DNA from: Actinomycetales bacterium
GTDB lineage: Bacteria; Actinomycetota; Actinomycetes; S36-B12; UBA5976
Assembly: GCA_027484085.1 (NCBI GenBank)
Contig: JAIXQF010000004.1
Location: forward strand, 568,162 to 632,161
DNA: 64,000 bases
Direction: 5' to 3'
Shown: piece after piece, positions 43,199 through 52,455 of the stretch
Layout of the letters: every line of letters starts with the position of its first letter
Position numbering within the stretch: position 1 is the first letter of the stretch
Made by a program: the position numbers and the translations under genes
The notes under the pieces: generated by a model
What the model was told of the DNA's origin: nothing
The model's database searches: none
What the model saw: the letters and a program-made list of their open reading frames with translations, nothing else

Positions 43199-43249
43199 TG
43201 TTAGGTTCAACCCCATACCTTCAATGGAATGAGTAGGGGTGCCCTAAAA

Positions 43250-43477
43250 ATGGCAGTTGAATCCACAGGTCAAGAACGTGGCAATCCACGTTTTTTCTCG
43301 TTGATTGAAAATTCACCAAAGACCGGTAAGAGTCCAACCATTTGGGCCTGGCCACAAATGACCGAGTTCTTTAAGGTTGCAAGCCAGCCAGTTCAAGGCC
43401 CATGGCCACCACATCAGGATGTTCGTCCAGATCCAGACGCCAGCGATATGCCGGTAGCAGTTCGCGACAACAAGTAA
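43250..43477 (+). CDS. Small protein of unknown function in the cox operon
   Basis: 75 residues from ATG 43250; an ATG at 43229 would add 7. Soluble, no signal peptide or membrane span. The C-terminal half is rich in Pro and Trp (WAWPQMTEFF; GPWPPHQDVRPDPD). Not recognised as a known Cox subunit. Codon choice is like that of the adjoining cox genes (AAG for Lys, CCA for Pro), and it lies 53 bases ahead of coxM on the same strand, which supports a real gene. Confidence 0.6.
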   Translation: MAVESTGQERGNPRFFSLIENSPKTGKSPTIWAWPQMTEFFKVASQPVQGPWPPHQDVRPDPDASDMPVAVRDNK

Positions 43478-43530: not shown

Positions 43531-44406
43531 ATGTATCCCTCACGCTTTGGATATGAATCACCAAAGACAGTCGAAGAAGCAGTAGCTCTTCTTGACGCAC
43601 ATGGTGGTGAAGCAAAGGTATTAGCAGGTGGACAAAGCTTGGTGCCAATGTTGCGCCTTCGCTTCGCAGCCCCAGAAATGTTGGTTGACATCAACGGAAT
43701 CGATGGCTTGCGCTATCACCGCGTTGACGCAGATGGAACCATTCGAATTGGCGCATTGTGCCGTCACGAAGATCTTGAAGAAGATGACGCAGTAGCAAAG
43801 GCAGTACCAACAATCGCCGCCGCAGCTCCGCTAGTTGCTGATCCAATCGTTCGCACCCGTGGAACATTTGTTGGCTCGGTATGTCACGCTGATCCACAGG
43901 GAGACTGGGCCGCCACAATGACTGCATTGGGTGGCCATATTGTTGCCCAGGGTCCGAAGGGCAAGCGCGACATTCCAATTGCTGAATTTGTTATTGGTCC
44001 ATTCCAGAACACGCTTGCATTTAATGAAATTGCAGTCGAAGCTGTTATCCCGGCGCCTAAGGGTGTTCGCATTGGTAACTACCTAAAGCTTGAGCGTCGC
44101 GTTGGCGACTTCGCAACTGCATCCGTTGCAGTGGCTCTTGACATGGTTGGCGACACAGTTGCTGACGCTGGTATTGCACTTGCAGGTGTTGGTGGTCGAA
44201 CAATCAACGCTAACGAAGCAGCATCTGCACTTATCGGCAAGAAGCTAACTGCAGAAAACATCGCATCAGTTGCAGCCGCAGTTGCCGCTGTTGCTGAACC
44301 GCGCACAGATCACCGCGGTTCCGCTGACTACAAGCGACAAATTGTTAAGACATTCGTAGAACGAATTCTTACTGGACTTCTAAACACATCACAGAAAGCG
44401 GCATAA
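43531..44406 (+). CDS. coxM: Aerobic carbon monoxide dehydrogenase, FAD subunit (CoxM)
   Basis: 291 residues. Medium subunit of the molybdenum CO dehydrogenase, passing electrons from the [2Fe-2S] subunit to FAD and the respiratory chain. FAD-binding motifs are AGGQSLVPMLRLRFA near residue 31 and TRGTFVGSVCHADPQGD near residue 110. AAAGGA precedes the ATG by a few bases. It leads coxM-coxS-coxL, the gene order of form I CODH. coxS begins 2 bases after its stop. Confidence 0.94.
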   Translation: MYPSRFGYESPKTVEEAVALLDAHGGEAKVLAGGQSLVPMLRLRFAAPEMLVDINGIDGLRYHRVDADGTIRIGALCRHEDLEEDDAVAKAVPTIAAAAPLVADPIVRTRGTFVGSVCHADPQGDWAATMTALGGHIVAQGPKGKRDIPIAEFVIGPFQNTLAFNEIAVEAVIPAPKGVRIGNYLKLERRVGDFATASVAVALDMVGDTVADAGIALAGVGGRTINANEAASALIGKKLTAENIASVAAAVAAVAEPRTDHRGSADYKRQIVKTFVERILTGLLNTSQKAA

Positions 44407-44408
44407 CA

Positions 44409-44936
44409 ATGACTAGCCTTTATGACGAAGTACAGGCAGCACCCGGAGAAGGTGTTCCTACTCGACGCGTAACTATCAAGGTCAACGGAGCAGACCGCAC
44501 TGTTGATGTTGAGCCACGCTTACTGCTTGCGCACCTACTGCGCCAAGGCCTTAAGTTAACTGGTACTCACACCGGTTGCGATACTTCAAACTGTGGTGCC
44601 TGCACCATCTTGTTTGAAGGTCGTCCAATTAAGTCCTGCACCATGCTTGCTGTTCAGGCGGACGGCCACAGCATTGAAACCGTAGAAGGAATGGCCACAG
44701 CAAGCGAGCTGCATCCAATCCAAGAAGGCTTCAAGGAAGAGCACGGCTTACAGTGTGGTTTCTGCACACCAGGCATGATGATGGCTGCGAAGGCACTTCT
44801 AGATAAGAACGACAATCCAACTGAGGATGAAGTTCGCTGGGCACTTTCCGGAAACCTTTGCCGCTGCACTGGTTACCAAAATATCGTTAAGTCAGTTCTC
44901 TGGGCCGCAGAAAAAATGCGCGCGGAATCAAAATAG
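44409..44936 (+). CDS. coxS: Aerobic carbon monoxide dehydrogenase, iron-sulfur subunit (CoxS)
   Basis: 175 residues. Carries two [2Fe-2S] clusters between the Mo site and FAD. The plant-ferredoxin-type cluster has CDTSNCGACTILFEG followed by KSC, and the second, helical-domain cluster has QCGFCTPGMMM and CRCTGYQNI. All eight cysteines are visible. An N-terminal extension of about 20 residues precedes the fold, making it slightly longer than the usual CoxS. Confidence 0.96.
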   Translation: MTSLYDEVQAAPGEGVPTRRVTIKVNGADRTVDVEPRLLLAHLLRQGLKLTGTHTGCDTSNCGACTILFEGRPIKSCTMLAVQADGHSIETVEGMATASELHPIQEGFKEEHGLQCGFCTPGMMMAAKALLDKNDNPTEDEVRWALSGNLCRCTGYQNIVKSVLWAAEKMRAESK

Positions 44937-44951
44937 GTTGGGGATTTAGTC

Positions 44952-47333
44952 ATGGCATTAGATGAAATCAAAATTGGCGGACTAGGCGCAAGCCGTCGTC
45001 GCGTCGAAGACAACCGCTTCATCCGCGGAAAAGGTAACTATGTCGATGACATCGTGTTGCCGGGCATGCTTCACATGGAACTACTTCGTAGTCCAGTAGC
45101 TCACGCTCGCATCAAGTCAATCGACGTCAGCAAGGCATACGAGATTCCAGGCGTTCGCTTAGTTCTAACTGGCGAAATGATGGCCGCTCGTAACCTTGCC
45201 TGGATGCCAACTTTGTCCTACGACACCCAGGCAGTTCTTGCTACTGACAAAGTTCGTTTCCAGGGTCAAGAAGTTGCAGCTGTTATCGCAGATGATCCAT
45301 ACATCGCAAAAGATGCCTGCCAGGCAATCGTTGTTGAGTACGAACAACTTCCAGTAATCGTTAACCCATTCCAGGCTATGGAATCAGGCGCGGAAGTAAT
45401 TCGCGACGACAAGGAAAACCAGCCAGGAAACAAAGTTTTCGATTGGGAAATCGGTGACAAGGCAGCAACTGACAAGGCATTCGCTGAAGCAGATGTTGTT
45501 TCCAAAATGGAACTGCACTACCCACGTTCACATCCATCTCCGATGGAAACTTGTGGTTCGATTGCAGACTTCAATCGCGCAACTGGCAAGCTAACCGTTT
45601 ACATGACTTCACAGGCGCCTCATATTGTGCGTGCTGCAGTCGCCATGGTTGCGGAACTTCCAGAACACATGATCCGCATCGTTTCACCTGACTTGGGTGG
45701 TGGCTTTGGCAACAAGGTGCCGATTTACCCAGGTTACGTAATCTCAATCTTGGCCTCGATCTTGACTGAAGTTCCTGTTAAGTGGATCGAAGACAAGACC
45801 GGAAACTTGATCTCCACAGGCTTTGGTCGCGACGTTTACCTTCAGGGTGAAATGGCGCTTCGCAAGGACGGCAAGATCATGGGTATGCGCATGAAGACCA
45901 TCTCTGATCACGGCGCTTTCTATGCAGATGCCCAGCCAAGTAAGTTCAAGATTGGCCTAATGCACTCAGCATTTGCTTGCTATGACGTGCCAGCTGCACA
46001 TCTTGAGTCTGTTGGTTACTACACCAACAAGGCTCCAGGTGGCGTTGCATACCGTTGTTCCTTCCGAGTAACGGAAGCCATGTTCTTCCAAGAGCGCATG
46101 ATTCATGGTGCAGCTAATGATCTAGGAATGGATCAAGCTGAGTTCCGTCGCATCAACTTGGTTAAGGACGATATGTTCCCTTACCGCACTGCCTTCGGTT
46201 TCCTAACCGACTCGGGTCAGTACGGAAAGTGCCTTGACATAGGTATGAAGGCAATCGGCTACGACACTTACAAGCAAGAGCAAGAAGAAGCTCGTAAGCG
46301 TGGCAAGTTGCTAGGTATTGGTATCTCGACAATGACTGAGCCTTTGGGCGCAGGAAACAGTCGCGAATACGACATCTTGGGTATCAAGATGTTTGACTCC
46401 GCTGAACTTCGCGTTCACATGTCCGGTAAGGCAATCTTGCGTACCGGTGCAATGAACCAGGGTCAGGGACACCAGACAACTTGGGCACAGATTGTGGCTC
46501 ACGAACTAGGTATTCCAGCTGACGACGTAACCGTCGAAGAAGGCGATACCGACACCGCACCATTTGGTATGGGAACTTACGCATCACGTAGTACTCCGGT
46601 TGCCGGCGCTGCGGTTGCAATGGTTGCTCGCAAGATTCGTGCCAAGGCACGCAAGATTGCAGCACACCTTCTTGAGGTCTCAGAAGAAGATATCGAGTGG
46701 GAGTTGGGTCGGTTCTACGTACGCTCAAACAAAGAGCGTGGCGTAACCATTCAGGACTGTGCAATTGCTGCATACAGCAACATGCCAGACGGTATGGAAC
46801 CTGGTCTTGAAAACAACGCTTACTACGATCCACCGAACCTAACTTGGCCGTTCGCCGCCTACTTCGTAAAGGTTGAAGTAGATGCTGAAACTGGCGTTTG
46901 GGATGTTCTAAAGGTTGTTGCAGTTGATGACTGTGGCGTTCGAATCAACCCAATGATCGTGGAAGCACAGATCATGGGTGGTCTAACTGAGGCTTACGCA
47001 ATGGCAAGCATGCAGTACCAGACTTACGATGACGAAGGTAACTGCATTGGCTCCAACTACATGGACTACTTGCTACCAACAGCTTGGGAAACTCCAGGCT
47101 TTGAATTGCATGAAGTTGTAACTCCATGCCCTCACCACCCAATCGGTGCCAAGGGTGTTGGCGAATGTGCAACTGTTGCAGGTCCTGCAGCGTTCGTTAA
47201 CGCAGTTGTAGATGCACTAGGTCACCTTGGCGTTCGTAACATCGACATGCCAATGATGCCTAACCGTGTCTACGAAGCATTGACAACAGGTAAAGACATC
47301 AGCGGTATGCCACCAGTAAGAATGGGTGACTAA
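44952..47333 (+). CDS. coxL: Form I aerobic carbon monoxide dehydrogenase, molybdenum subunit (CoxL)
   Basis: 793 residues. Catalytic subunit oxidising CO with water to CO2, two protons and two electrons at a Cu-S-Mo centre. The active-site loop AYRCSFR lies at residues 366-372, with the Cu-ligating Cys at 369; this exact motif separates true form I CoxL from the form II (BMS-type) proteins with AYRGAGR. Other family parts are GGGFGNKVPIYPG, GQGHQTTWAQIVAHELG, and the C-terminal GAKGVGECATVAGPAAFVNAV with the catalytic Glu. The GGGGATTTAGTC leader gives a weak ribosome-binding site. Confidence 0.97.
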   Translation: MALDEIKIGGLGASRRRVEDNRFIRGKGNYVDDIVLPGMLHMELLRSPVAHARIKSIDVSKAYEIPGVRLVLTGEMMAARNLAWMPTLSYDTQAVLATDKVRFQGQEVAAVIADDPYIAKDACQAIVVEYEQLPVIVNPFQAMESGAEVIRDDKENQPGNKVFDWEIGDKAATDKAFAEADVVSKMELHYPRSHPSPMETCGSIADFNRATGKLTVYMTSQAPHIVRAAVAMVAELPEHMIRIVSPDLGGGFGNKVPIYPGYVISILASILTEVPVKWIEDKTGNLISTGFGRDVYLQGEMALRKDGKIMGMRMKTISDHGAFYADAQPSKFKIGLMHSAFACYDVPAAHLESVGYYTNKAPGGVAYRCSFRVTEAMFFQERMIHGAANDLGMDQAEFRRINLVKDDMFPYRTAFGFLTDSGQYGKCLDIGMKAIGYDTYKQEQEEARKRGKLLGIGISTMTEPLGAGNSREYDILGIKMFDSAELRVHMSGKAILRTGAMNQGQGHQTTWAQIVAHELGIPADDVTVEEGDTDTAPFGMGTYASRSTPVAGAAVAMVARKIRAKARKIAAHLLEVSEEDIEWELGRFYVRSNKERGVTIQDCAIAAYSNMPDGMEPGLENNAYYDPPNLTWPFAAYFVKVEVDAETGVWDVLKVVAVDDCGVRINPMIVEAQIMGGLTEAYAMASMQYQTYDDEGNCIGSNYMDYLLPTAWETPGFELHEVVTPCPHHPIGAKGVGECATVAGPAAFVNAVVDALGHLGVRNIDMPMMPNRVYEALTTGKDISGMPPVRMGD

Positions 47334-47376: not shown

Positions 47377-47964
47377 ATGCTGATCTCACAATCATTTGAA
47401 GTGAAGCAACCTATTGACGCAGTGTGGAAGTTCTTTGATGACATTCCTCAGGTGGCAGCATCCATTCCGGGTGCCAACTTGTCACGGGAAGTTACTAAGG
47501 ACCGCTACGAGGGCGGGGTAGTTGTTTCTGCTGGTCCAGTAAAGCTGGAATTCGATGGTGTTGCTGAAGTCAAGAGTCGCGATAACGCGAAGCGCATCTT
47601 GGTTCTTGACGCATCAGGTGCAGACAAGAAAGGCCGTGGCGCAGCTTCGGTACTTCTAACTGCGTCCTTGAACCAGATTCCTGGTGGAACCAAAGTCGAT
47701 CTTTCGATGGATCTAACGATCTCCGGTGCGGCAGCGAACTACGGCCGTGGCCTAGTTGCTGACGTAACAGCAGTTCTGGTTAACACAGCAACTGTGAACA
47801 TGGAAGCTCGCATGGATGCAATCTCTAAGGGCTTGGATCCAAACTCAGTTGGTGGCGCAAAGGCAGCCAGCGGTCTATCGATTGGTATCAACGCCTTCAA
47901 GCGTGCTACCGGTCGCGTTTTAGCCCGCTTCTTCCTTCCTTACAAGCCAGTGGCACGTCGGTAA
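47377..47964 (+). CDS. coxG: CoxG, SRPBCC-fold CODH membrane-attachment protein
   Basis: 195 residues. The fold resembles START/Bet v1 domains; in Oligotropha CoxG is reported to anchor CO dehydrogenase to the cytoplasmic membrane. QSFEVKQPIDAVWKFFDDI and VAASIPGANLSREV are family hallmarks, and the C-terminus ends in a basic, amphipathic tail (KRATGRVLARFFLPYKP) suited to membrane contact. A strong AAGGAGG lies 6 bases before the ATG. It is followed at 12 bases by the first of five small membrane proteins. Confidence 0.9.
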   Translation: MLISQSFEVKQPIDAVWKFFDDIPQVAASIPGANLSREVTKDRYEGGVVVSAGPVKLEFDGVAEVKSRDNAKRILVLDASGADKKGRGAASVLLTASLNQIPGGTKVDLSMDLTISGAAANYGRGLVADVTAVLVNTATVNMEARMDAISKGLDPNSVGGAKAASGLSIGINAFKRATGRVLARFFLPYKPVARR

Positions 47965-47976
47965 AGGGGTACAGAG

Positions 47977-48231
47977 ATGAGTATTTGGGCAATTTTCAAC
48001 ATCGTCTTAGTTGTTGTCATCATTCCAGTTTTGGTTTGGTTGCTTAACGTAGTGCTAAGTGCATTGGAACGTATCCGCGGAGCTGCAGATGATGCACTCG
48101 CTGGTGGCGTTGCGCTAATTGGTGAACTATCAACCACACCTAGCCTGCTAGAAACCACCGATGAAACAATCAAGGACGTGGCAAACGGCGCAGTTCGCTA
48201 CGCCGGTTCCGTCGCGAAGTTACTGGGATAG
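47977..48231 (+). CDS. Small single-span membrane protein 1 of the cox-associated quintet
   Basis: 84 residues. One membrane helix at about residues 5-27 (uncharged N-terminus), then ALERIRGAADDALAGG and a helical tail. Positive charges just after the span predict that the C-terminus faces the cytoplasm. No known family recognised. AAAGGGG precedes the ATG. Immediately downstream of coxG (12 bases) and 10 bases before the next small gene. Confidence 0.82.
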   Translation: MSIWAIFNIVLVVVIIPVLVWLLNVVLSALERIRGAADDALAGGVALIGELSTTPSLLETTDETIKDVANGAVRYAGSVAKLLG

Positions 48232-48241
48232 GGGAATCTAA

Positions 48242-48469
48242 ATGGAAACCGTATTTGTAGTATCGCTGATCATTTTCACAGTGATCATCGCTGCAGCTGC
48301 ACTTGGATTAATCCGAGTCATTCTTCACCTTCGCTCAGTCGTCAAGACTCTTGATGCACTTGATGGTGGCGTGGCAGTAATCGTGGCACAGACATCAACC
48401 GTTACAAGCACCGTTGATTCCGTCAACGCCAGCTTGGCTCCAGTGCGTAACTTCGCAGAATCGATTTAG
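48242..48469 (+). CDS. Small single-span membrane protein 2 of the cox-associated quintet
   Basis: 75 residues. One span at about residues 5-26, then RVILHLRSVVKTLDALDGGVAV, basic then amphipathic. Predicted N-out/C-in. The layout (membrane helix plus a short amphipathic helix with heptad-like spacing) resembles DUF948-type proteins but the match is not certain. The GGGG upstream serves as ribosome-binding site. 8 bases before gene 3. Confidence 0.8.
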   Translation: METVFVVSLIIFTVIIAAAALGLIRVILHLRSVVKTLDALDGGVAVIVAQTSTVTSTVDSVNASLAPVRNFAESI

Positions 48470-48477
48470 GGGTAGTC

Positions 48478-48738
48478 ATGACAGAATTCTTCGGTGATCA
48501 CACAGGTTGGTTACTTGGTTATGTCATCGGTCTAGTTGTAGTACTAGTCGTTGTTGCACTTGTTGTACCAATTTTGCTATTAGCTGCTCGCATCGGCGGA
48601 CAGGCAAAGAGCATTAACTCCGGTCTGCAGGCTGCAGAAACAAACACTGCTGGCCTCAAGAAACTCCGCACCACAATCGAGTCTGCAACCAACATTGTTG
48701 CTGGTCTTAATCGTGGCCGTACAAAGCTAGGAGGCTAA
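48478..48738 (+). CDS. Small single-span membrane protein 3 of the cox-associated quintet
   Basis: 86 residues. Acidic N-terminus (MTEFFGDH), one long Val/Leu-rich span at about residues 11-37, then ARIGGQAKSINSGLQAAETN and a basic helical tail ending NRGRTKLGG. Predicted C-terminus in the cytoplasm. GGGG precedes the start; the AGGAGG of the next gene overlaps its 3' end. Confidence 0.8.
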   Translation: MTEFFGDHTGWLLGYVIGLVVVLVVVALVVPILLLAARIGGQAKSINSGLQAAETNTAGLKKLRTTIESATNIVAGLNRGRTKLGG

Positions 48739-48740
48739 CA

Positions 48741-49016
48741 ATGGATGTCAAAGTAGAAACATTGTGGACTGTGGCAAACATCCTGGGAATCGTTGTAGTG
48801 GTTGCAGTAGCGCTGCTTCTAACAATCTTGGTTTTGCTAGTTCGCACAATCGATAAGCGCGTTGCAGCCATCAAGGCAACTTTGGCAGCAGCCAAAGACA
48901 ACACTGCTCACACCAAGTTAATTGGCGAAACCGCTGCTGGTGTTGACGCGGTACTAAACGAAGGTCTAGAACATCACTTGTTCCTAGGTCGTGTCCTAGA
49001 AAAGGTACGTTCATGA
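48741..49016 (+). CDS. Small single-span membrane protein 4 of the cox-associated quintet
   Basis: 91 residues. One span at about residues 12-35, then RTIDKRVAAIKATLAAAKDN, a basic amphipathic helix. The second half contains GVDAVLNEGLEHHLFLGRVLEKVR. The AGGAGG upstream gives a strong ribosome-binding site. Stop overlaps the start of gene 5 by 4 bases (ATGA). Confidence 0.82.
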   Translation: MDVKVETLWTVANILGIVVVVAVALLLTILVLLVRTIDKRVAAIKATLAAAKDNTAHTKLIGETAAGVDAVLNEGLEHHLFLGRVLEKVRS

Positions 49017-49366
49017 GCACACTAGCTTTATGGTCCGTCATTGATGTAACTGCTTTGATCGCAGGTCTTGCAGTTTACCTATTCATCGTGGGTCGCCAGT
49101 TAACTAAGGTTGCCGGCACTCTTGAAGAAGCAGCCGACCTTGTATGGGAAATCAAGAAGGACGCCGAAGTTATTCACGGCGGCCTAACCCAGATCAACCA
49201 GACTGGTGGAATTGTTGCTGGAGCGTTGCCACTTCTTTACGGCATGGCTGAAGGCATTGTTACTGGCGCAACATACGTTGCTGAAGAGCCTGTCGAATCT
49301 GTCAACAAGCCAGCAATGGGCGTTCGTCGTTCCCGCCAAATGCACGGTGTTGGAATCGACATCTAA
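49013..49366 (+). CDS. Small single-span membrane protein 5 of the cox-associated quintet
   Basis: 117 residues, the longest of the set. One span near residues 10-27, then GRQLTKVAGTLEEAADLVWE, helical and amphipathic, and a second weakly hydrophobic stretch (GIVAGALPLLYGMAEGIVTGA). It ends with a basic tail (GVRRSRQMHG). Start overlaps the stop of gene 4. Last gene of the cox plus-strand operon, followed by the terminator at 49372-49411. Confidence 0.82.
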   Translation: MSTLALWSVIDVTALIAGLAVYLFIVGRQLTKVAGTLEEAADLVWEIKKDAEVIHGGLTQINQTGGIVAGALPLLYGMAEGIVTGATYVAEEPVESVNKPAMGVRRSRQMHGVGIDI

Positions 49367-50165: not shown

Positions 50166-51314
50166 TTATCCCATCCTTGATAGTTCTCTTGCGAATTCCT
50201 CGAGGCTTTTGTAGTTATGGCCTGAATAAATCTTGTCGATATATGGATCTGCGATCATCATGCCAATGGTGTTTGGCTTGTAATCCTCATTGTCTCCCTT
50301 ATGAGGGTTCACCCAAATGACCTTGTGCGCAAGTCGAGAAAGCGTCTGCATGGCCTTATCTAGAGCTTGGGGTTCGCCTTGATCCAGACCATCGGAGCAG
50401 ATCACCACAATTGCGCCTCTTCCTAGCCGAGAGCGGCGAGATTCTTTAACGAAGGCCGCAATTGCATCGCCAATTCTGGTGCCACCGTCCCAATCCAATA
50501 CTGATTCGCCAGCCAGGCGCATCGCCTCATCTGGGGTGCGCTTATCTATGGACTTGGTGATTCTGGTTAGTCGTGTGCCAAAGCAAAACACCTCAACTTT
50601 GGTATTTGCTCGACGGGCAGAATAGGCAAGCTGCAGCAAGTTGCGAGAGTAGTCCGCCATTGATCCCGAAACGTCGAGAATAAAAACAATCGAACGCAGT
50701 TTTTCTTTGCGCTTTATGTACATCAAATCTTTAGGCTCACCTAGGGATCGCATGGTTTCGCGTGCCATGCGTCGCATGTCTAAAACTTTGCCTTTAGGAG
50801 TGGATTGCGTTCGGTAAGTGCGTCGCTTAGGAGGAGAAACCTTAAGCATTGAGATTAACTTGCGGAACCGATTAAGTTCTTCATCAGAACAATCAGCAAA
50901 GGCTTTATGCCGAGAGATGTCTGCGGCTGAGGCCATGTAACCCAATCGAGTTTCATCCTCGATTACTTCGCCCGGAAGACCTTGTTCAACATTCGGGACT
51001 TCGAGAGTTGCTCCGGCATTTGCTGAAGACTTGAGCTTTACCTTCCTGACATCTGGTTCATTTTCACCAATGTCTAGAAAGAAGGCTTGAAATCTTTTGT
51101 TGTATAGCGGAATGTTGTCTTTCTTGCGGACCAAAGTAATGCGGCCACTCCAGTAAACATCCATGATGTCACTGGCATCCAGAACAGAAATTGAAGAAAG
51201 GTAGGTAATGACATCATCTGAACCAATGACCATGCCGTGAAAGCGGAGGTCGTGGGCGAACTCAATAAAGAGTTCGTCAAAGCCAGTTAACTCAGGAGCT
51301 TGGGACGATGTCAT
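50166..51314 (-). CDS. coxE: CoxE-like VWA domain protein
   Basis: 382 residues. Partner of the MoxR ATPase CoxD; this pair is proposed to help assemble the Cu-S-Mo centre of CO dehydrogenase. The VWA domain occupies the second half, with the metal-ion adhesion motif FILDVSGSMADYSRNLL and a later RLGRGAIVVICSDGLDQGE. The N-terminal half (FIEFAHDLRFHGMVIGSDDV) is the CoxE-type helical region. Start overlaps the coxD end by 23 bases. Confidence 0.9.
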   Translation of the reverse strand: MTSSQAPELTGFDELFIEFAHDLRFHGMVIGSDDVITYLSSISVLDASDIMDVYWSGRITLVRKKDNIPLYNKRFQAFFLDIGENEPDVRKVKLKSSANAGATLEVPNVEQGLPGEVIEDETRLGYMASAADISRHKAFADCSDEELNRFRKLISMLKVSPPKRRTYRTQSTPKGKVLDMRRMARETMRSLGEPKDLMYIKRKEKLRSIVFILDVSGSMADYSRNLLQLAYSARRANTKVEVFCFGTRLTRITKSIDKRTPDEAMRLAGESVLDWDGGTRIGDAIAAFVKESRRSRLGRGAIVVICSDGLDQGEPQALDKAMQTLSRLAHKVIWVNPHKGDNEDYKPNTIGMMIADPYIDKIYSGHNYKSLEEFARELSRMG

Positions 51315-52179
51315 TGAGATTCTTCATGGTGTAGTCCAGATCATCCCGATCTTTGATTACTGCACCTAGAGTGTCGGCTGCACTTTTCTCGTTCAAGTCA
51401 CTTGCGCCAACTGCATCTAAGGATTCAACCCAGTCAATAGTTTCGGCAACGCCCGGGACCTTTTCAAGTTCCATTTGGCGTAACTGGTTAACTGCGCCAA
51501 CAACCTGAGTGGCTAGGCGTTCGCTAATGCCTGGAACCCGAGCCCGAACAATCTCAATTTCGCGATCGGCATCTGGGAAACCAATCCAGGTGTAAAGACA
51601 GCGACGCTTTAGAGCATCATGAAGTTCACGAGTGCGGTTTGAAGTCAAGATAACGATTGGGCGAGAGGTCGCCGCTACGGTTCCTACTTCTGGGATTGTG
51701 ACCTGGAAGTCTGAAAGTAGTTCAAGCAAGAACGCTTCGAATTCATCATCGGCGCGGTCAACTTCGTCAATAAGCAATACGCAAGCATCTCCAGCGCGAA
51801 CTGCCTTTAGAAGTGGACGCTCAAGTAAAAACTTTGGACTAAAGAGCTGTTCGTCGGCGCTTTCACTTAACTCAGCACTAGTAAGTGAGCGGATGTGAAG
51901 CATTTGGCGGGCGTAATCCCATTCATATAGTGCGTGATTAGTATCGATACCTTCGTAGCACTGCAAACGAATAAGTTCTCGCTGAAACATAATGGCAAGG
52001 GTCTTGGCAAGCTCAGTTTTACCAACGCCGACTTCGCCTTCAAGCAAAAGCGGCTTACCAAGCTTTAGGGAAATCAGGATTGAGGTGGCCAGGCCGCGAT
52101 CAGCAATGTAACCAAGTTCGCGTAGGTCTTCGGTGAGTTTTTCAACTGTTAAATCAGCAAATGGGCGAGCGGCAGTCAT
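51292..52179 (-). CDS. coxD: CoxD-like MoxR family AAA+ ATPase
   Basis: 295 residues. Walker A GEVGVGKTELAKTL near residue 45, Walker B VLLIDEVDRADDEFE near residue 137, sensor region PIVILTSNRTRELHDALKRRCLY. MoxR ATPases couple with VWA proteins such as CoxE to mature metalloenzymes. In CO oxidisers CoxD is required for sulfur and copper insertion into CoxL. Operon with coxE and the flanking small genes. Confidence 0.92.
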   Translation of the reverse strand: MTAARPFADLTVEKLTEDLRELGYIADRGLATSILISLKLGKPLLLEGEVGVGKTELAKTLAIMFQRELIRLQCYEGIDTNHALYEWDYARQMLHIRSLTSAELSESADEQLFSPKFLLERPLLKAVRAGDACVLLIDEVDRADDEFEAFLLELLSDFQVTIPEVGTVAATSRPIVILTSNRTRELHDALKRRCLYTWIGFPDADREIEIVRARVPGISERLATQVVGAVNQLRQMELEKVPGVAETIDWVESLDAVGASDLNEKSAADTLGAVIKDRDDLDYTMKNLNDIVPSS

Positions 52180-52203: not shown

Positions 52204-52455
52204 TTAGTTGGAATTGCCGAAGACTAGGTCAGCGATTGAGCCACCGGTGGCTAGTTTGCCTTCGCGAGCCAACTTTGCCTTCCAGGCAGTAGCCACATCA
52301 GTACCTTCATCGCCAAAGCCGTCGTATGAGACGTCTTTCATGTTGCGACAAACCTTATTTGGATTGCATTCGTCGTCGAGTTCAGCCATGGTTTCAGGAT
52401 TACCCTGCCAAATTGAGCGAATGGCTTCAGCGGCTTGAGTGGTCTCTTCAGACAT
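52204..52455 (-). CDS. 83-residue protein of unknown function leading the coxDE operon
   Basis: Acidic, soluble, with two cysteines close together (ECNPNKVCRNMKD) and no membrane span. No family recognised. AGGAGG-like GGGAGGAA lies about 5 bases before the ATG. It lies 24 bases upstream of coxD on the same strand. The CX5C pair raises the possibility of metal or redox binding, but nothing more can be said. Confidence 0.65.
   Translation of the reverse strand: MSEETTQAAEAIRSIWQGNPETMAELDDECNPNKVCRNMKDVSYDGFGDEGTDVATAWKAKLAREGKLATGGSIADLVFGNSN

Follow-up and report, generated by a model that had tools for sequence, protein, structure and literature searches.

Five small membrane proteins, P1 to P5, encoded directly behind coxG of a form I carbon monoxide dehydrogenase (CODH) cluster, were found to have homologues, one for each, in [NiFe]-hydrogenase clusters of Actinomycetota, at the place published for the proteins HylTM1-5. 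We rate the chance as somewhat better than even that the quintet is a hetero-oligomeric membrane adaptor for CODH, homologous to HylTM1-5, with docking for menaquinone reduction. HylTM1-5 were already known by position, and no earlier statement of HylTM relatives in CODH clusters was found in the open-access literature; the link between the two sets thus appears to be new. Atmospheric trace-gas oxidation still poses the question of how electrons get from soluble CODHs and high-affinity hydrogenases to the quinone in the membrane; since both enzyme systems have a homologous set of five genes, a shared solution is suggested.

In the window (the whole 64-kb stretch of DNA analysed), the genes coxM (43531-44406; FAD subunit; PF00941, PF03450), coxS (44409-44936; iron-sulfur subunit, assigned by its sequence, its site between coxM and coxL, and matches to cox profiles), coxL (44952-47333; molybdenum subunit), and coxG (47377-47964; SRPBCC protein; PF06240, 3.7e-13) are followed at once by P1 to P5, all on the plus strand. 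The earlier assignment of the CODH to form I agrees with both the score of CoxL, which at 1100 bits lies above the aerobic CODH cut-off of TIGR02416 (991 bits), and its active-site loop AYRCSFR, as GGVAYRCSFR in the translation fits the loop VAYXCXFR; the best PDB match was CoxL of 8uem. The end of coxG lies 12 bases 5′ of P1 (47977-48231; 84 aa), which is followed by P2 (48242-48469; 75 aa), P3 (48478-48738; 86 aa), P4 (48741-49016; 91 aa), and P5 (49013-49366; 117 aa). These ORF coordinates confirm the gene sizes given previously as well as the spacing with gaps of 10, 8, and 2 bases and one overlap of 4 bases. Past P5, a CoxE-like VWA protein (50166-51314; PF05762), encoded by a convergent maturation gene, and a MoxR-like, CoxD-like AAA ATPase (51292-52179; PF07728 and other AAA models) are encoded on the opposite strand. 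Judged by relatives of the coxG product, the window derives from a Nanopelagicales actinobacterium.

A single strong hydrophobic segment lies near the N-terminus of each of the five proteins, with a Kyte-Doolittle maximum of 2.3-3.5 over 19 residues. Charges are sparse ahead of it, and the 15 residues behind it include two to four K/R, so that an N-out/C-in topology is predicted. Thereby, hydropathy and charge counts are in line with the single N-terminal helix, the basic residues, and the orientation described in the earlier note. The amphipathic helix also described there was found by a moment above that of shuffled sequences in P1 (residues 64-81), P2 (61-75), P3 (35-52), and P5 (28-63), and did not hold for P4. 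P5 also carries a weaker second hydrophobic stretch (1.46) and a basic tail, neither of which had been mentioned before. In a scan by ORF length and hydropathy, P1 to P5 were the sole run of at least two tandem single-span ORFs in the window, and 20 shuffles of the window gave no such run. AF2 models, calculated as single chains and of modest confidence, showed one helix from residue 3 to 90 for P4 (mean pLDDT 79) and helices 3-62 and 71-86 followed by a low-confidence tail for P5.

The five proteins are under purifying selection, with a mean column identity of 71-80% across the five alignments and, wherever dS was defined, a dN/dS of about 0.03-0.2. In P4, W9, N54, and T55 are invariant in all 25 CODH and hydrogenase sequences compared; the motifs HHLFL of P4 and RRSR of P5 are confined to the CODH type of the window. 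Since no Cys and no His is conserved across the CODH and hydrogenase systems, electron carriage by the proteins themselves is unlikely. A heme or metal role of the HH motif of P4 was considered and dropped, as HH is missing from the versions linked to hydrogenases and to a second CODH clade.

Pfam and NCBIfam scans of P1 to P5 gave no family at cut-off and scattered sub-threshold DUFs only. Also, the P1-P5 profiles matched nothing in the cox cluster of Afipia pHCG3 (L115), whose annotated membrane proteins are MHYT proteins; a resemblance to CoxB, CoxC, CoxH, or CoxK was accordingly not seen, as the earlier note had stated. DUF948 proteins (PF06103) are likewise small, with one N-terminal helix and a helical remainder, but the DUF948-like origin offered as a weaker possibility was not borne out: the PF06103 scan of the window's P1 to P5 had no match, no member of the five families reaches the cut-off of 37.2 bits, and the sole match, in a hydrogenase-linked relative, scored 16.6 bits. 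Profile searches of the PDB with P4 and P5 returned designed coiled coils and noise only, with no meaningful match.

A survey of actinobacterial cox clusters, as suggested together with the original description, showed coxG followed by all five genes in 51 loci, whose records bear the names Nanopelagicales, Acidimicrobiaceae, Nocardioides, and others, some of these loci being overlapping stretches of the same genomes. Among the related cox clusters detected, all intact ones have the quintet 3′ of coxG. When 296 Actinomycetota genomes were searched, a coxL at least 82% identical to that of the window was accompanied by P5 a few kb downstream in seven of seven genomes. Module-bearing CoxL proteins fall into a single clade together with their closest relatives (SH-aLRT 100); for the four entries without module inside this clade, the contig ends near coxL or the module stands elsewhere in the genome. 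The contig of one relative with coxG only (L040) breaks inside P1 into foreign DNA; it is a chimeric contig and no true exception to the linkage. In this contig, binned as Bacteroidales in a public MAG, Nanopelagicales cox DNA changes midway through P1 into unrelated AT-rich DNA.

With a broad P4 profile, 32 of the 296 Actinomycetota genomes were matched, in 30 cases beside CODH or hydrogenase genes. The two unlinked genomes (G224, G185) belong to one genus and have P3-P5 away from both enzymes; both have a coxL of the broader clade of the window's, and in G224 P1 and P2 are located a few kb from coxL (L139). The proposed link to cox genes holds for one clade of form I CODHs, in which it is conserved, but it is not specific to CODH, as hydrogenases and a second CODH clade share the module. 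In this genus, the triplet P3-P4-P5, set apart from the genes of both enzymes, was located at 7884-8854 of L095 and 7775-8734 of L098, between genes for a long DUF255-like and a penicillin-acylase-like protein, both named by sequence look only. A divergent orphan cluster with the order P5-P1-P3-P4-P5 was seen at 7570-9299 of L161 (G315:C9 76000-95000), and no CODH or hydrogenase genes were found around it within these 19 kb. Separately, the genomes of L021-L025, all of one genus, encode a second CoxL-like protein, 37-39% identical, in the order S-L-M and without coxG or quintet.

Weaker relatives found with the P5 profile away from coxL are mostly adjoined by [NiFe]-hydrogenase genes, and the large subunits beside them belong to PF00374. 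In L118-L121, the gene order is hydS-P3-P4-P5-P1-P2-hydL, and L162 and L163 have the same order where contigs allow. Clusters of group 1l were described to contain five interposed short membrane proteins, HylTM1-5 (PMC9561532, citing an earlier study), and clusters of group 1m two small single-helix proteins of 82-92 aa (PMC9561532). By gene arrangement, and not by HydDB, L118-L121 were taken as group 1l because their gene order matches the published HylTM1-5 arrangement, and L103 and L108 as group 1m because their neighbours match the published 1m accessory genes (PMC9561532), namely a HybD peptidase, NifU-like, CooC-like, TPR, and DUF1059 proteins, and two small membrane proteins. The latter two are homologues of P1 and P2 (92 and 84 aa in L103) and occupy the positions of the published pair; these clusters differ in being split, with P1-P2 apart from P3-P4-P5, which stand beside hydS.

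For the homology itself, uniterated profiles built from cox-linked sequences only were used, and these matched the counterparts between hydS and hydL with E-values of 2e-10 to 2e-9 for P4, 6e-8 to 8e-7 for P1, and 8e-8 to 1e-4 for P3; matches were weaker for P2 (2e-4 to 2e-3) and marginal for P5. Comparing cox with hydrogenase profiles by hhalign gave the best match on the diagonal for all five (98.2-99.4%), with E-values of 4e-20 for P1 (99.3%), 5e-14 for P2 (98.2%), 3e-21 for P3 (99.4%), 2e-17 for P4, and 1.5e-14 for P5; these values lean upward because the hydrogenase sets were recruited with the same profiles, and the independent check is gene order. In control cox and group 1h hydrogenase loci, the iterated P1-P5 profiles found no match at full sensitivity. 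A similarity-free scan detected tandem single-span runs in the module loci and none in 22 control cox and hydrogenase loci. The P5 search against plasmids had no match, and among plasmid records with hydrogenases akin to group 1h (about 40% identity), the one inspected had no quintet.

Like P1 to P5, HylTM1-5 are five short predicted membrane proteins encoded together, and in L118-L121, the five ORFs that separate hydS from hydL are homologous to P3, P4, P5, P1, and P2 in this order; the correspondence was drawn from sequence, position by position, and from gene order in Actinomycetota clusters. The set of the window differs in that it serves a Mo-Cu CODH, lies behind coxG, and has a permuted order and other C-terminal tails. 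P1 to P5 follow coxG and are not interposed between hydS and hydL, and the genome of the window had no match to the module-linked hydrogenase large subunit; we therefore regard the quintet as a homologous set and not as a member of HylTM. Outside the actinobacteria, searching 296 genomes of the phylum of G361 for the module-linked hydrogenase clade gave zero matches, with no positive control among them. An extra hydrogenase large-subunit paralogue without its own small subunit was observed beside P3-P4-P5 in L105 (11038-12819, minus strand) and L107 (3750-5567, plus strand); the Cys ligands are lost in the former (VCGWSGSQ) and kept in the latter (ACGWCGSIH).

Two of the genomes matched by the broad P4 profile, G299 and G261 (L158, L159), have P3-P4-P5-P1-P2 in front of coxMSL, with a CoxL only about 55% identical to that of the window. 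The order 3-4-5-1-2 is common to this second CODH clade and the hydrogenase clusters, and the window has it in cyclically permuted form, as 1-2-3-4-5. Comparing the five profiles with each other yielded two groups, P1, P3, and P4 (E 1.9e-9 to 3e-15) and P2 and P5 (E 1.2e-16); cox P3 and P4 were matched at 96.8% (E 4e-10). By these profiles, the five are paralogues of two kinds, which supports the serial duplication raised in the earlier note. The set probably arose from two ancestral types by serial duplication and was passed between operons for CODH and for hydrogenase. Next to the module, three extra paralogues of P1, P3, and P5 were found that are longer, at about 190-270 aa (L096, L097, L104, L105, L107, L160).

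In the proposed mechanism, each subunit would cross the membrane once with its N-terminus outside and continue as a long helix into the cytoplasm, with about 25 residues in the membrane and 40-60 as cytoplasmic helix according to the N-out topology and the models. Jointly, the five could form a short stalk or pedestal keeping soluble CoxMSL and CoxG at the membrane, and menaquinone would be reduced beside the bilayer through this docking. The membrane and juxtamembrane half is common to the enzyme systems; the C-terminal tails are enzyme-specific and would recognise the partner enzyme (EGLxHHLFLxRV in P4 and PAMGxRRSR in P5 for the CODH type of the window).

HucM, a membrane-reaching helical scaffold bringing menaquinone to the hydrogenase Huc of group 2a, is a precedent for a helical scaffold proposed for menaquinone access of a soluble trace-gas enzyme (PMC10017518). 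It differs from the quintet as one 188-residue protein forming a tetrameric tube with peripheral membrane contact, and the likeness drawn here is one of proposed role. CoxG was reported as menaquinone carrier of CODH (PMC13240472); according to the published model, this protein of family PF06240 acts on the electron path in question, and it is encoded by the adjacent gene, but it has a soluble SRPBCC fold and is also present where the quintet is missing. With CoxG already at hand, no clear gain from the quintet is evident, which speaks against the adaptor role. The module is also missing from many functional CODHs (mycobacterial type, Afipia pHCG3, Thermomicrobium) and from group 1h hydrogenases, and is therefore not essential to quinone reduction as such.

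Docking and quinone transfer become better founded since the module accompanies unrelated enzymes sharing this task, and CODH and hydrogenase, two unrelated trace-gas enzymes, probably rely on one type of membrane adaptor to pass electrons into respiration. A more far-reaching version, with a chance slightly short of even, is that a portable five-subunit complex with swappable partner-recognition tails is exchanged between Mo-Cu CODHs and [NiFe]-hydrogenases as general quinone-access adaptor of actinobacterial trace-gas respiration. A pure membrane tether, which would keep the enzyme at the membrane, perhaps at sites into which dissolved CO or H2 partitions, without guiding quinone, is compatible with the topology, the common membrane half with divergent tails, and the lack of cofactor ligands; for such a task one protein would suffice, however, and that five distinct conserved paralogues are kept together in one of two set orders speaks for a specific assembly, so that we regard a mere tether as unlikely. 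Slightly less probable still is a platform for assembly or maturation that holds MoxR/CoxE-type or hydrogenase maturation machinery, or the nascent enzyme, and has no part in electron flow. Genes for VWA CoxE, MoxR, XdhC-like, HybD, NifU-like, and CooC-like proteins do occur in the same clusters, but maturation genes are also present in quintet-free clusters (Afipia pHCG3, L115; Streptomyces, L116), the Mo/Cu and NiFe maturation machineries are unrelated, and quinone as shared acceptor is easier to explain.

Two other explanations appear very improbable. That small single-span helices resemble each other by convergence or biased composition, and that their neighbourhoods are coincidental, might be suspected as short hydrophobic proteins inflate profile scores and some seed E-values, those of P2 and P5, are weak; against it stand the diagonal best matches of all five, the order shared by hydrogenase and second-CODH clusters, the invariant residues of P4, and the control loci free of matches even by iterated profiles. 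A membrane complex for sensing or regulation, acting on how the trace-gas enzymes are expressed or on their activity, could be read from the long cytoplasmic helices and the orphan copies in one genus (L095, L098), but the strict operon position behind structural genes and the lack of a signalling or recognisable receptor domain disagree with it.

The set common to both enzyme systems provides names and a testable role for genes hitherto listed as hypothetical. Also, the quintet can serve as genomic marker for a CODH clade of abundant aquatic actinobacteria, and the HylTM proteins and the CODH quintet become study objects for each other.

Two further small genes were observed at the borders of the cox region in the window. 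An 82-aa soluble protein (43229-43477, plus strand) with the conserved stretch VASQPVQGPWPPHQ..RPDP is encoded directly 5′ of coxM, and relatives also lie 5′ of coxM in L112 (15933-16169) and L096 (17243-17530). Upstream of the MoxR/CoxE pair, an 83-aa protein (52204-52455, minus strand), for which a Pfam scan gave no match, has a relative in L112 (5718-5996), and a C-terminal motif AWxxxLxxEGKx like that of this protein was found in the orphan-triplet loci L095 (1962-2354) and L098 (1810-2217).
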